From contig JABUEY010000019.1 of NCBI GenBank assembly GCA_013314815.1, positions 1-41,706 on the forward strand: a stretch of 41,706 nt of DNA, in the 5' to 3' direction. Origin of the DNA: Syntrophobacteraceae bacterium (GTDB taxonomy: Bacteria > Desulfobacterota > Syntrophobacteria > Syntrophobacterales > Syntrophobacteraceae). The notes beneath the pieces were generated by a model. That model had not been told where the DNA came from. It worked only from the letters and a program-made list of their open reading frames with translations, and did no database searches. How positions within the stretch are numbered: the first letter of the stretch is position 1; every line of letters begins with the position of its first letter. The translations under genes and the position numbers were made by a program. This document shows, piece by piece, positions 23,532 to 31,591 of this stretch.

Positions 23532-25703
23532 ATGGAAACGCCTGTGAACGGTCTTATCGCTCTTATATCTGCACTCGCCCTTGTGGTTCTGATCACCTTC
23601 GGAAGCCTCCGCTGGAGGCGGCTTGCCGCCAGGGAACCGAGAATCCTTCTCTCGGGAGGCGGTACTGGGGGACATGTCAACCCCGCCCTCGCCATTGCGG
23701 AAGGAATCAAGAATAAGGAACCGAACGCGAAATTCCTCTACGTGGGCGTGCGGGGAAAAGCCGAAACCATCATTGTGCGGCGCGTGGGATACCCGCTGCT
23801 CTTCGTTTCTTCGGAAGGCTATCCGGGCCTGAAGTTGTCCTGGCGTTCCTTTCGCTTCCTGTGCCGGCTGTGCATCGGTGTGACCCAGTCCGTCATCATC
23901 CTTTTCTGGTTCGCCCCCCGCTGGATCATCGCCACGGGAGGCTACGTCAGCGCTCCGGTCATACTGGCCTCGCTGGTTCTGCGGCTGTTCCGGATCTGCC
24001 CGACCACGATCTTTCTTCACGAACAAAACAGTATTCCCGGCCAGTTGAACGCAGTATTGGGGAAATGGGTGGACCGGGTGCTCCTGACCTTTCCACAGAC
24101 CGTTTCGTTCTTCCCCCGCAATGGCGTGGTCGTCGGCTATCCCATCCGGCATTCCATCACGCTGGTACCCAGGGAAGAGGCCTTCTCGCGCCTGCCCTTC
24201 AAAGTCCCTGAGGGGAGGCAGGTGGTTTTCGTGTTCGGCGGATCCCAGGGAGCCCGGACGATCAACCGGGCCATCGTGGATGCTCTGCCCCATCTCCTTC
24301 CGCATCGACACCGGCTCTTCATCATCCATGGCATGGGGCTGGCCCGGTCTTCGGATTATCATGCCGTCGAAGATACGGAGTCACGGATCCGATCCGCCTT
24401 GAAACCCGAAGACCGGGTCCTGATCGAGGAATTCTACTTCAGGCAGGATTATTTTCACAACATTGCCGACGTCTACTCGATAAGTGACTTGATCGTCTGC
24501 AGAAGCGGAGCAGGAAGCCTCAACGAGATTTCACGCATGGGAAAGCCGGCCATCCTGATACCCAAGGCCAACCTGCCCGGCGATCACCAGGTCATGAACG
24601 CCAGGGCCATGAAGCACGCAGGTGCAGCGGAAATCCTCTTCGAAGATACCATCATGGAAAACGGCAGGCTGCTCGAAAAACTCGAAGGCAAATTCCTGGC
24701 TGAACGCATATTGAGACTTTTGCAGGATCCGGACCAGATCGAGAAGATGGCCGCCAACACCAATCGCTTTCTGAGGCGTCAGGCCATCGAACGCATCCTG
24801 AGCGAAATCTACCGGGACAACAGCTTCAACAACGGAATCGGCTGTCCTCCTGTCCCTTTTCGAGCCCTGTTCAGCAATCACCGGCTGCTCCAGATTCTGA
24901 GCACCGCGTACGAAACATCTCCGCGAAGCTACGACCCGCTGGCCGTGATAGGCGACGAAGACGATCTCATTTATTACCGCCACAGGGCTGCGGGGCTTCT
25001 CAGTCACCAGGCATGGCAGGACCGGAACCTCGGAATCAAGCTCATCGGGCTCACTCACTACAAAGAAAAGATCCCCACACTGCTCCATATGCTGACGGAT
25101 CGTTCACCCACAACGAGAATCAGGAGGATCTTCGGTGGAGATTTCGAGCAGGTGGGCTTTATCCGGCGAAACATTGTGCAGGCACTGCAGGTGATGAATC
25201 ACTTCGATGCGGATGTGGAAAAAGCCCTGCTCACAGCGGCTGATGATCCCTACTATGAAGTCCGGGCGCAGGTCTGCCGCACGGCAATGCATTTCGGATC
25301 CGCCATCGCCGGCAGGGAGGTCTGGATGGACACCCTTATGAAGAAACTGGACGACGACTGCTTCGAGGTGGTTCTGATGGCAGCCGGAGCACTCGGAGAA
25401 GTGGGCATCGACGGGAGAGCCCTCGAAGCCCTGCTGAACTTGAAGAATTCTCACTACTGGCAGGTTCGGGATGCGGCACTCAAGGGACTTAGCCGCCTGG
25501 TGGAACGTCGGGTCATCAGCCCCTCTCCCGATCTCCTCTGCCGAATGGCAGGCTTTATCCTGACCTCGACGGACTTCAGGCCTCATTTCTCCATCAAGGA
25601 GACTTTCAACATGATTCAAAAAGGCTGCCGGGACAGGCTGATGATCGAGGAAGGACTCGATGCATCCCCTCTCCCGTCCGAAAAAGCCGCTGGGAAGAGC
25701 TGA
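23532..25703 (+). CDS. MurG-like glycosyltransferase fused to a C-terminal HEAT-type repeat domain
   Basis: 723 residues, twice the usual MurG length (about 360). An N-terminal membrane anchor (8-25) is followed by a complete MurG-like GT28 region: SGGGTGGH (41-48), GGYVSAPV (136-143), HEQNSIPG (163-170), FGGSQGA (235-241), SGAGSLNE (325-332) and GDHQVMNA (350-357). MurG transfers GlcNAc from UDP-GlcNAc to lipid I, giving lipid II. Residues about 480-705 hold alpha-helical repeats typed like HEAT (YYEVRAQVCRTAMHF, CFEVVLMAAGALGEVG, YWQVRDAALKGLSRL). The MraY-like gene starts two bases after its stop. Whether it is the main or an auxiliary MurG is unknown. Confidence 0.86.
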   Translation: METPVNGLIALISALALVVLITFGSLRWRRLAAREPRILLSGGGTGGHVNPALAIAEGIKNKEPNAKFLYVGVRGKAETIIVRRVGYPLLFVSSEGYPGLKLSWRSFRFLCRLCIGVTQSVIILFWFAPRWIIATGGYVSAPVILASLVLRLFRICPTTIFLHEQNSIPGQLNAVLGKWVDRVLLTFPQTVSFFPRNGVVVGYPIRHSITLVPREEAFSRLPFKVPEGRQVVFVFGGSQGARTINRAIVDALPHLLPHRHRLFIIHGMGLARSSDYHAVEDTESRIRSALKPEDRVLIEEFYFRQDYFHNIADVYSISDLIVCRSGAGSLNEISRMGKPAILIPKANLPGDHQVMNARAMKHAGAAEILFEDTIMENGRLLEKLEGKFLAERILRLLQDPDQIEKMAANTNRFLRRQAIERILSEIYRDNSFNNGIGCPPVPFRALFSNHRLLQILSTAYETSPRSYDPLAVIGDEDDLIYYRHRAAGLLSHQAWQDRNLGIKLIGLTHYKEKIPTLLHMLTDRSPTTRIRRIFGGDFEQVGFIRRNIVQALQVMNHFDADVEKALLTAADDPYYEVRAQVCRTAMHFGSAIAGREVWMDTLMKKLDDDCFEVVLMAAGALGEVGIDGRALEALLNLKNSHYWQVRDAALKGLSRLVERRVISPSPDLLCRMAGFILTSTDFRPHFSIKETFNMIQKGCRDRLMIEEGLDASPLPSEKAAGKS

Positions 25704-25705
25704 AC

Positions 25706-26815
25706 ATGATTTACCACCTGGGGAATTTTCTTTTTCAGATATCCGAGGCCTTTTCATTCTGCCGCCTGGTGAACTACATCAGTTTCCGCGCCATCATGGC
25801 GGCCTTGACCTCTGTTATTTTCGTGTTTCTGTTCAGCAGAAGCTTCATTCTCTTCGTTCACAGGCAGTGCTTCCTGGACCAGGTGAGGGAGACCGGGGTG
25901 CATTCCGCGTTCGATAAGAGTGGGACTCCCACCATGGGCGGGGTTTTGATCATTGGAGCTGTGTTGAGTTCCATGCTGATATGGGGGAACTGGAACAGCC
26001 CCTTCTTGCTGTGTTCTCTGGGCGGGATGCTCTGGTTCGGTTTTCTCGGCCTCCTGGACGACCTGTCCAAGGTGAGGATGAAGAGTGGAGACAGGGGACT
26101 TTCCGAGCGCACCAAGCTGGTCCTGCAGGGTTTGTTCGGCCTCGTTTTCGCCTGGATCTGCGTGGGCCCCTACGCCCCGCTGGGAGAGAACCTTTCCACC
26201 AAGCTCTATATCCCGTTCTACAAGTACCCTCTCCTCGACCCGGGCCCTTATCTGTATGGAGCTTTTATCTTTCTTTTCGTCATCTTTGTATCCAACGCGG
26301 TCAACATCACAGACGGACTCGACGGACTTGCAATCACTCCCGCCCTGTTCGTCGCCGTTGTCCTCGGAATCTTTGCATACGTGGAAGGAAACCGGATCTA
26401 TTCCAGCTACCTCTACTACCCGTATCTCAGGGGAGCAGGGGAGCTGACCGTCTTTGGAGCGGCGTTCGTGGGGGCGGGTCTCGGGTTTCTCTGGTACAAT
26501 GCATATCCGGCCCAGATTTTCATGGGAGACACCGGGTCCCTGGCCATTGGAGGAACCATGGCCGTCATGTCGGTGCTCCTGAAGCAGGAAATGCTCTTCC
26601 CCCTGCTGGGAGGGCTCTTCATTGCGGAAGCTCTCACCAGCCAGATCCAGGACAAGATTGGAGTCCGCTGGGTGGGGCGGCGCATCTTTTACCGGGCTCC
26701 CCTCCATCACAACCTTCAACACAAGGGCATCGCCGAAACCAAGGTCGTGATCCGCCTGTGGATTGTCGCCGGCATCCTGGCACTCATCTCGCTGGCTACT
26801 CTCAAGCTCCGCTGA
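25706..26815 (+). CDS. mraY: MraY-like phospho-MurNAc-pentapeptide transferase (divergent)
   Basis: 369 residues, typical MraY length, with about ten membrane helices. It transfers phospho-MurNAc-pentapeptide to undecaprenyl phosphate to give lipid I. Motifs: KSGTPTMGGV (71-80), the Asp pair LLDDLSKV (116-123), NAVNITDGLDGLA (197-209; usually NLTDGLDGLA) and FMGDTGSLAIGG (272-283). The C-terminal His motif reads APLHHNLQHKG (331-341), where MraY normally has HHH followed by ELKG, so the third His is Asn here. The polytopic topology and DD/NxxDG/GD motifs make the family assignment firm. It is coupled to the MurG-HEAT gene, outside any murE/murF/murD/ftsW cluster. Confidence 0.9.
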   Translation: MIYHLGNFLFQISEAFSFCRLVNYISFRAIMAALTSVIFVFLFSRSFILFVHRQCFLDQVRETGVHSAFDKSGTPTMGGVLIIGAVLSSMLIWGNWNSPFLLCSLGGMLWFGFLGLLDDLSKVRMKSGDRGLSERTKLVLQGLFGLVFAWICVGPYAPLGENLSTKLYIPFYKYPLLDPGPYLYGAFIFLFVIFVSNAVNITDGLDGLAITPALFVAVVLGIFAYVEGNRIYSSYLYYPYLRGAGELTVFGAAFVGAGLGFLWYNAYPAQIFMGDTGSLAIGGTMAVMSVLLKQEMLFPLLGGLFIAEALTSQIQDKIGVRWVGRRIFYRAPLHHNLQHKGIAETKVVIRLWIVAGILALISLATLKLR

Positions 26816-26863: not shown

Positions 26864-27199
26864 ATGTTATGGACTTTCCCTTCGTGGTGCCGCACGGGGA
26901 TTTCTCTCATCGCTTTCGGTCTTGTGATCGAACGCTTCAACATCCTTATCCGCGAGCTCCAGATCTTTTCCACGAGGGCCGAGCTGGCAGGGCAGATGAG
27001 AAGCACTCGCCACCTCGGGCTGACAGCGTTTCTGCTGGGGACACTCATTATCGTTATTGCCGGCTGGCGTTTCCCTTACCTGCGCAGACATATCAACGGC
27101 GGGGAAACGGTTTTTTCCATTCTTTCGGACGTTATCCCGATGGGGTCCATGCTCGTTACCGTTTACGCCATTCTCCTGTTCTTTGTGTTTCTGTTCTGA
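26864..27199 (+). CDS. DUF202/YidH-like small membrane protein
   Basis: About 111 residues from ATG 26864 (AGGAG eight bases upstream; GTG 26858 is in frame but too close to it). Three likely membrane helices: GISLIAFGLVIERF, LGLTAFLLGTLIIVIAGWRF and LVTVYAILLFFVFLF. The first helix motif (RTGISLIAFGLVIERF) is characteristic of DUF202. Function unknown. It lies 48 bases after mraY and 55 before panE, so may be cotranscribed. Confidence 0.8.
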   Translation: MLWTFPSWCRTGISLIAFGLVIERFNILIRELQIFSTRAELAGQMRSTRHLGLTAFLLGTLIIVIAGWRFPYLRRHINGGETVFSILSDVIPMGSMLVTVYAILLFFVFLF

Positions 27200-29357: not shown

Positions 29358-31448
29358 TCAGCGAAGGAATGACGCCTCTGCCTGGAGCTTTTGCCTGTAC
29401 TGCCCGAGGGCCATCAGAGGGAAACAATTGCGGTAGTTGTGATAGCGGATGTAGAAGTGCTTCGGAAAACCCGTCCCCGTAAAATACAGCTCTTCCCATG
29501 TCCCATCAGCTTGCTGGGTGCGAACCAGGTACTGTATACCCCGGTATACCTCCGGCGATTTCTCCTCGCCGCATGCCAGAAGAGACATGATAGCCCAGGC
29601 GGTCTGAGAGGGTGTGCTGGGGCCCTGCCCTCGAAGTTCCGGGTTCTCATATGAATCACACGTCTCCCCCCACCCTCCGTCCGGGTTCTGGTGGTCTTTG
29701 AGCCAGCGCACGGCTTTGCGGATACAAGGAGATTCGGGGGCTTCTCCGATGGAAATCAGGCCCTTCAAAACAGACCACGTCCCGTAGATGTAGTTTACAC
29801 CCCAGCGCCCCCACCAGGCGCCGTCGGGTTCCTGAAGATCCAGCAGGAATTGGATGGCCCTTTGAGCACGGGGATGGGAGCGATCATACCCGAAATAACC
29901 CATCGCCTCGATCACCCTGCCCGTAACGTCCGCCGTGGGATAATCCACCATGGCTTCCTGGTCGGCGAACGGAATCCTGTTCAGGATAACCATGTTGTTG
30001 TCCTTGTCAAAGGCGGCCCATCCTCCACATAAACTCTGCATGCTCAGGCACCACTCCATGCCTCTTTCCTTGACGCACGTGAGCCCATCGCAGCGGTCCG
30101 GGTTGAATCGGTTCAGGGTGCTCAACACCACAGCCGAATCGTCCACATCGGGATATTGAGTGTTGATGAATTCAAAAGCCCAGCCGCCGGGAGGACAGCA
30201 GTTTTTGACCTGCCAGTCGCCGCCGGTGGTCACCTGCTTTTCCATGAGCCATCGAGCGGCCTTTTGCACCGCAGGGTGATCGGTGGGTATGCCCGCATCG
30301 AGCAGGGCGAGGCAGGTGAGGGCGGTATCCCAGACCGGAGAGACGCACGACTGCATTCTCAACCCCTCTTCATCCTCGATGCAGAAATCCTCGAGAGCCT
30401 TCAAGCCCTTCCTGATCACCTCGTGGTCCAGCGGATATCCGAGATAATAGAGCGCAAGAATGGAATACACCATCGGGGGCTGAATTCCACCCCAGTCTCC
30501 ACTCTCTTCCTGGTGCTCGAGTATCCAGGTTTCCGCTTCCTGCACCGCCCTGTTGCGCAGAGACCTGATGGGATTCCGTTCAAAAGCCTTGGCAATGCGG
30601 TCGAAAAGGTAAAAAAGTTTATGGGTGCAGGACTGAAATCTCCTGCAGGTACCGGAGGAATCCGAAACATAGAGCTCGCGCACCCCGGCTTCCTCGGGCA
30701 GAGGATATCGGGGCCGTATGGCCAGCACGATGGAAAGCGGCACCACGGTGCCCCTCGCCCAGCTGCTGAACTCGTAGATGTTGAAGTAGAAATGCGGAGG
30801 CAGCAGGACCAGTTCTACCGGCATGGACGGCACCTTATCCCACGGGTATTGACCAAAGAGTGCCAGCCATATCTTGGTAAAAACGCGGGCCGATTCGATG
30901 CTTCCATGATCGAGAATGAACTGCCTCGCTCTGCGCAGAGCATCCGATTCAGGATCTTCACCGGCAAGCTTCAGGGCGAAATAGGCTTCGATGGTCGTGC
31001 TCAGATTGCCGCCGTCGCCATAGTACAACCCCCAGGCTCCGTTCGGCATCTGCTTGTTGAGCAGGTATCTGACCATACTTCTTTCAGCGGCGGGATTCTT
31101 CAGATCCAGGATCCGCAGAAGCATAACATACTCGGCCGTGATGGTTACATTCGATTCCAGTTCCGCCCACCAGTACCCATCGGAGTGTTGAGTGCGAAAA
31201 TAATACTCGCACGAGTTCCGGATCGCCGTCTCAATCTTTCTGACCCACGAACTGTGGACACCCGAATACTGAAGGTGCTGAAGATCGTCGGTCTCGGTCC
31301 CTTCCCTCGCATACCAGTCTCCCCTGGATGGAGAAACGTTGGTCGTCGTTGAGGATTCAGAATCTTTACAGGCTCCCCGATCCTCCCAGTCAAATTCGTG
31401 TTCGAGGAGTTCAGCCTTGTTTTCGCGTTTACCTGTAATTGGATTCAT
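29358..31448 (-). CDS. shc: Squalene-hopene cyclase
   Basis: Cyclises squalene to hopene, the first step of hopanoid synthesis, as a monotopic membrane enzyme. I used ATG 31448 (696 residues); a GTG at 31559 would add 37 residues with no better ribosome site. The catalytic DXDD motif is present (PDVDDSAVV, Asp codons beginning at 30149). Several QW repeats are readable (DPDGAWWGRWGVNYIYGT-type, QNPDGGWGET, QTDGTW-type), and the C-terminal FYIRYHNYRNCFPLMALGQY is standard. No sqs/hpn genes are adjacent, so squalene supply is elsewhere. A probable promoter and inverted repeat lie upstream. Confidence 0.96.
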   Translation of the reverse strand: MNPITGKRENKAELLEHEFDWEDRGACKDSESSTTTNVSPSRGDWYAREGTETDDLQHLQYSGVHSSWVRKIETAIRNSCEYYFRTQHSDGYWWAELESNVTITAEYVMLLRILDLKNPAAERSMVRYLLNKQMPNGAWGLYYGDGGNLSTTIEAYFALKLAGEDPESDALRRARQFILDHGSIESARVFTKIWLALFGQYPWDKVPSMPVELVLLPPHFYFNIYEFSSWARGTVVPLSIVLAIRPRYPLPEEAGVRELYVSDSSGTCRRFQSCTHKLFYLFDRIAKAFERNPIRSLRNRAVQEAETWILEHQEESGDWGGIQPPMVYSILALYYLGYPLDHEVIRKGLKALEDFCIEDEEGLRMQSCVSPVWDTALTCLALLDAGIPTDHPAVQKAARWLMEKQVTTGGDWQVKNCCPPGGWAFEFINTQYPDVDDSAVVLSTLNRFNPDRCDGLTCVKERGMEWCLSMQSLCGGWAAFDKDNNMVILNRIPFADQEAMVDYPTADVTGRVIEAMGYFGYDRSHPRAQRAIQFLLDLQEPDGAWWGRWGVNYIYGTWSVLKGLISIGEAPESPCIRKAVRWLKDHQNPDGGWGETCDSYENPELRGQGPSTPSQTAWAIMSLLACGEEKSPEVYRGIQYLVRTQQADGTWEELYFTGTGFPKHFYIRYHNYRNCFPLMALGQYRQKLQAEASFLR

Positions 31449-31591
31449 CCATTCACCCAAATGAGGTTGAGAGCCTTGCTGATCCGTTACGCGAGCATAC
31501 GGATGGAGAAAACACGCACATTCAAGCCCCGACTTCCCTTTCCGCCGGAACCTCTCCACGCACCGCGCCTCGATCCCCGGCCTGTAACCGT

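Follow-up and report, generated by a model that had tools for sequence, protein, structure and literature searches.

Fusions between enzymes of the Mur pathway have been reported previously, namely MurE-MurF, MurG-MurC, MurC-Ddl, and MraY-MurG (PMC6420597). In E. coli, MurG interacts with MraY (PMC6420597), and native mass spectrometry has described a hand-over among MraY, MurG, and MurJ that operates through the rising lipid affinity of the free enzymes (PMC9046198). MglA of Kitasatospora is known as an alternative lipid II synthase (PMC8092295). In this current study, a stretch of 41,706 nucleotides from a Syntrophobacteraceae bacterium was analyzed (hereafter, the window), which makes up an entire contig (G000:C30) of a 4.06-Mb assembly. 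It encodes a MurG-type protein extended by HEAT repeats and, directly downstream, MraY. With a probability of roughly 0.6, this pair represents a laterally spread, single-copy lipid I/lipid II module in which the HEAT repeats would dock MraY to MurG (and to MurJ).

The murG-HEAT gene (positions 23532 to 25703, forward strand) encodes a 723-amino-acid protein in which a transmembrane-anchored MurG-type glycosyltransferase is followed by a C-terminal HEAT solenoid. Pfam analyses of the open reading frame identified the N and C domains of GT28 (residues 38-184, E 1.9e-24, and residues 231-420, E 4.1e-25) as well as HEAT_2 (residues 564-653, E 8.9e-13; 48.8 bits compared with a gathering cut-off of 27.7). 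The AF2 model (pLDDT 92.2, pTM 0.89) consisted of a helix at residues 4-34, a MurG fold at 36-429, and an all-helical region at 449-706. These results bear out the sequence-only reading, which had proposed a membrane anchor, a complete glycosyltransferase, and a HEAT fusion; its figure of about 225 HEAT residues was too low, the region being nearer 260.

The MurG catalytic region (residues 37-428; 23640 to 24815, forward strand) was assigned from PF03033/PF04101, the invariant columns, and the MurG fold, whose top PDB match was P. aeruginosa MurG 3s2u (TMt 0.88, VIA Z 32.2). The GGGTGGH, HEQN, GGSQGAR, GAGSLNE, and PGDHQ..N motifs are all intact, and the active-site motifs were found to be conserved both in the invariant columns and in the alignment to 1f0k and 3s2u. 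Against the NCBIfam murG model TIGR01133, the protein scored 214.5 bits, which is below the cut-off of 250.25 (one relative reaches 254); we therefore refer to it as MurG-type. The enzyme is predicted to transfer GlcNAc to lipid I.

The HEAT alpha-solenoid (residues 449-706; 24876 to 25649, forward strand) was defined by the PF13646 match, the AF2 helices, and a profile match to HEAT/alphaRep chains; a structural search, dominated by MurG-like folds, brought up no specific structural relative for this part. Its best-conserved stretch is the signature FGGDFEQVGFIRRN (residues 533-547; 25128 to 25172, forward strand), of which the RRN part is retained in most of the separate HEAT genes adjoining mraY. 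The fusion is not a product of chance, since the HEAT region has been kept in different phyla and its motifs include invariant ones. An assembly or frameshift artefact was also ruled out, as the fusion reading frame is open in isolates and in finished chromosomes.

The hydrophobic helix at the N-terminus (residues 4-34; 23541 to 23633, forward strand), an AF2 helix with a mean Kyte-Doolittle value of 2.64 across 19 residues, is a probable membrane anchor. Such a helix precedes MurG in 31 of 41 MurG-HEAT proteins and at all 16 MurJ-MurG junctions, compared with none of 19 canonical MurGs. The window's helix aligns with the one linking MurJ to MurG in fused relatives, and in the MurJ-MurG fusion the pre-MurG helix falls at the position of the last MurJ helix. 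Two histories would fit: the window's anchor could be what is left of a former MurJ fusion, or MurJ could have been joined to a MurG that already had an anchor.

As the sequence-only reading had noted, only two bases separate the MurG stop codon (TGA, 25701-25703) from the MraY start codon (ATG, 25706). The mraY gene (25706 to 26815, forward strand) encodes a phospho-MurNAc-pentapeptide transferase of 369 amino acids that scored 295.8 bits against TIGR00445, above the cut-off of 192. The DD, N..DG, and GDTGS motifs are kept, including the catalytic Asp pair. Sequence comparison also found the two substitutions claimed earlier, NITDG for NLTDG and HHN for HHH (26705 to 26713, forward strand), the latter setting the protein apart from the full canonical motif. 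The motif could be read in 99 HEAT-linked MraYs, and every one of them lacks the third His (its place is taken by N, S, D, A, Q, T, or other residues), compared with HHH in all 19 canonical Desulfobacterota MraYs. Most HEAT-linked MraYs also carry Q where canonical MraYs carry E; NITDG is frequent, not universal, among module MraYs. At two loci titled Deltaproteobacteria/Myxococcales (L149 and L161), MraY is about 458 amino acids long, as if it had received an insertion of about 90 residues, and the TIGR00445 match is split in two within one frame.

When the 97.7%-complete assembly was searched with TIGR00445 and TIGR01133, no other MraY or MurG was found. A second MraY-family match on contig C232 (78 bits) is WecA-like and so was not counted as another MraY. 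The sequence-only reading had placed the pair away from other dcw genes, which proved correct: purH-purD-purE-tsaC lie upstream and DUF202-panE-panB downstream. The genome's dcw cluster, on contig C156, has neither mraY nor murG and reads murF-murD-ftsW-murC-murB-ftsQ-ftsA-ftsZ (ftsQ being identified from its position and from profile matches obtained for other genomes). In canonical Desulfobacterota, mraY is located between murF and murD, and murG immediately before murC; both genes were inside dcw in 19 of 20 canonical loci, the remaining locus showing no mraY. When the two gene orders are compared, it is therefore exactly mraY and murG that are missing from C156. Across 33 module-bearing genomes from many phyla, moreover, the module MurG is the sole full-length MurG, and the module MraY is the only MraY above the cut-off in 31, the other two running off contigs.

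The divergence of both proteins and their location outside dcw had suggested a second, specialised lipid I/lipid II route operating beside the canonical one. Given that neither the window's genome nor the 33 module genomes hold another MurG or MraY above the level of distant homologues, and that the dcw cluster lacks just these two genes, such a route is highly improbable. We conclude that MraY and MurG, two enzymes essential to the cell wall, occur in this genome only as this pair, a coupled module for lipid I and lipid II synthesis whose enzymatic activities are predicted. Elsewhere in the window, a DUF202 membrane protein gene between mraY and panE (26864-27199) was hidden by other-frame open reading frames in first-pass lists, and a squalene-hopene cyclase is encoded on the reverse strand (29358-31559; TIGR01507, 790.6 bits). 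A purH-like gene also stands immediately before HEAT-mraY at a Planctomycetota locus (L288, 6738-9908); its recurrence near the module there and in the window is perhaps a coincidence.

The distribution of the module was examined with the HEAT region, without MraY, as the query. The window protein itself was matched in 56 of 60 relatives, mostly over its full length. The HEAT region was detected in 15 of 297 sampled Desulfobacterota, in 33 of 247 sampled Acidobacteriota, and in 25 of 246 sampled Planctomycetota. The Planctomycetota matches comprised 7 verified MurG-MurJ-HEAT proteins, 1 more that is likely, 8 separate HEAT genes beside mraY, and about 9 generic HEAT proteins without mraY (E 4e-14 to 7e-9), which were set aside. 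When 84,980 named genomes were scanned, 94 loci came up, of which 80 were retained; these added Latescibacterota, Zixibacteria, Gemmatimonadota, Myxococcota, and Aminicenantota. Genomes with NCBI 'Deltaproteobacteria' titles were assigned to Myxococcota by taxonomy lookup, and several of them belong to the window's own GTDB class. The same HEAT domain thus immediately precedes mraY in at least eight phyla, including Desulfobacterota, Acidobacteriota, Planctomycetota, and Myxococcota. In all 105 loci where mraY was found, it follows HEAT on the same strand, at a median gap of -4 bp; at one locus (L263), no mraY was found within the 2.1 kb remaining on the contig.

Several gene architectures were observed. 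The window has MurG-HEAT followed by MraY. MurJ-MurG-HEAT followed by MraY was found in two sister families of the window's class and in two Acidobacteriota, and MurG-MurJ-HEAT followed by MraY in Planctomycetota and Acidobacteriota. MurJ also occurs as a separate gene, either after the pair (MurG-HEAT, MraY, MurJ, in Acidobacteriota) or before it (MurJ, MurG-HEAT, MraY, in one Myxococcota and one Acidobacteriota). Finally, eight Planctomycetota genomes carry a separate HEAT gene directly before mraY with no MurG adjoining, which identifies MraY as the constant partner of HEAT. The fused MurJ is recognisable as a MurJ domain: it matched PF03023 with E 4.8e-75 in one fusion (L043), kept the MurJ fold in another of the same type (L119; TMt 0.84 to 7wax), and retains the conserved Arg/Asp motifs. 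The pTM of the MurJ-MurG-HEAT model was only 0.61, and the relative placement of its domains therefore cannot be read from the model. Several genomes have no MurJ apart from the fused one; in others a free MurJ is also present. In the window's genome, MurJ is located away from the module; two free homologues were observed (G000:C119:6411-7886 and G000:C94:2896-4356), of which that on C94 groups with other Syntrophobacteraceae MurJs and that on C119 lies on a long branch.

These architectures bear directly on what the HEAT repeats do. They might act inside MurG as a stabiliser or regulator with no docking role, and their fusion to MurG in most members, together with the placement of both domains in one AF2 model (pTM 0.89), is consistent with this. 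However, MurJ sits between MurG and HEAT in Planctomycetota and in some Acidobacteriota, and elsewhere HEAT has a gene to itself with no MurG adjoining, which makes a purely internal role quite doubtful. It is somewhat less unlikely that HEAT serves as an adaptor bringing the MraY-MurG pair to the elongasome, the divisome, or Mur ligases such as MurF and MurD, with co-regulation alone behind its adjacency to mraY. MurG has been reported in other bacteria to bind or co-localise with MreB, MurD, MurE, and MurF (PMC6420597), and at two Planctomycetota loci (L259 and L260) the separate HEAT gene lies inside a dcw-like operon, ftsI-murE-murF-ftsW-HEAT-mraY. Against such an adaptor, no gene other than mraY adjoins HEAT consistently in every phylum, and no dcw gene was found within up to 10 kb of the module in the 80 scanned loci. 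The sequence-only reading had named MraY or a divisome protein as the partner recruited by HEAT, and the comparative evidence fits MraY better, the contact being one that we infer. Docking onto MraY thus ranks first in likelihood, followed by recruitment of another partner, and then by a role for MurG alone.

Phylogenetic analyses addressed the origin of the pair. In the MraY tree, the 19 canonical Desulfobacterota sequences, 8g01, and Aquifex formed one group (SH-aLRT 100) apart from all HEAT-linked MraYs, and the window's group joined Acidobacteriota (99). The MurG tree split module from canonical proteins (SH-aLRT 100), the module MurGs grouping with Acidobacteriota and not with canonical Desulfobacterota; a tree in which all Desulfobacterota MurGs are monophyletic was rejected (p-AU 1.3e-4). 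In the MurJ tree, MurJ-MurG-HEAT and MurG-MurJ-HEAT fell into separate sister clades (100 and 99). The window's pair is thus a separate MraY/MurG lineage common to other phyla. The sequence-only reading had also considered that the pair might be the host's only copy, rearranged. The copies are indeed the only ones; since they lie outside the housekeeping lineage of their phylum, they point to replacement by a different module and not to reshuffling.

An alternative is that old core genes diverged in place and left dcw in a few lineages, HEAT having been gained once, long ago, and passed on by vertical descent without lateral spread. The presence of the module in several deep phyla, with internal groups that largely track taxonomy, would accord with such a history. 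It is nevertheless unlikely, given that merely 15 of the 297 sampled Desulfobacterota carry the module and that their MurGs join Acidobacteriota (AU p = 1.3e-4, as above). Most likely, the module arrived by lateral transfer and took the place of the usual mraY and murG of the dcw cluster. The trees were obtained by quick searches, have long branches, and are built without canonical MraY and MurG from module-free Acidobacteriota and Planctomycetota and from other phyla, so that any direction of transfer read from them is provisional.

Taken together, these data suggest the following mechanism. MraY would form lipid I in the membrane, and MurG, tethered to the membrane through its N-terminal helix, would convert it to lipid II by adding GlcNAc. 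By docking onto MraY, the HEAT solenoid that MurG carries would keep both active sites together, and we propose that lipid I is therefore transferred directly. In relatives that have the flippase MurJ in the same polypeptide, lipid II could be handed directly to export. The scaffold recurs before mraY in at least eight phyla, often with MurJ fused to it as well, and this pattern suggests an assembly line made up of the three lipid II enzymes. What gene order and fusion establish, even when conserved, is linkage, not contact; HEAT-MraY contact and channelling are predicted from comparative sequence evidence. A stronger version, to which we give even odds, makes HEAT a scaffold dedicated to binding MraY; MraY, MurG, and MurJ would then form one channelling membrane complex, and the change in the MraY loop would have arisen by coevolution with HEAT. 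If HEAT is such a scaffold, the MurJ-MurG-HEAT and MurG-MurJ-HEAT polypeptides would be direct genetic evidence for the complex; the missing third His may instead reflect shared ancestry.

It is still debated whether MraY, MurG, and MurJ associate physically in a complex. The single-copy module makes this question directly testable, because a lipid II synthase and flippase are fused in two independent orders and the scaffold is always beside MraY. In addition, the module sets apart a distinct class of MraY. MraY is a target of antibiotics, and in this class a motif close to the active site is changed; cultured organisms that have it include Desulfacinum, Desulforhabdus, and Desulfoferrobacter. 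No published description of MurG-HEAT, MraY-HEAT, or MurJ-MurG fusions was found in the open-access literature searched; the enzymes are known, and their arrangement is new as far as that literature shows.

MglA resembles the module MurG in being distantly homologous to MurG and encoded away from dcw (PMC8092295). It occurs together with a canonical MurG in dcw, whereas the window's genome has no other MurG. Previously reported Mur fusions likewise join adjacent pathway steps (PMC6420597). None in that account involves HEAT or MurJ, whereas the module MurG is joined to both, in two orders and in several phyla. With canonical MurG (E. coli 1F0K, P. aeruginosa 3S2U), the module MurG shares the GT-B/GT28 fold, the catalytic motifs, and a single copy; it differs in its N-terminal membrane helix, its HEAT solenoid of about 260 residues, its location outside dcw, its separate lineage, and its score under the TIGR01133 cut-off. 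Similarly, the module MraY resembles canonical MraY (8g01; A. aeolicus 4J72) in its full-length match and its DD, N..DG, and GD.GS motifs, but it has HH[N/S/D/A/Q/T] for HHH, Q for the next E, and GDTGS for GDVGS, and it forms a lineage of its own.
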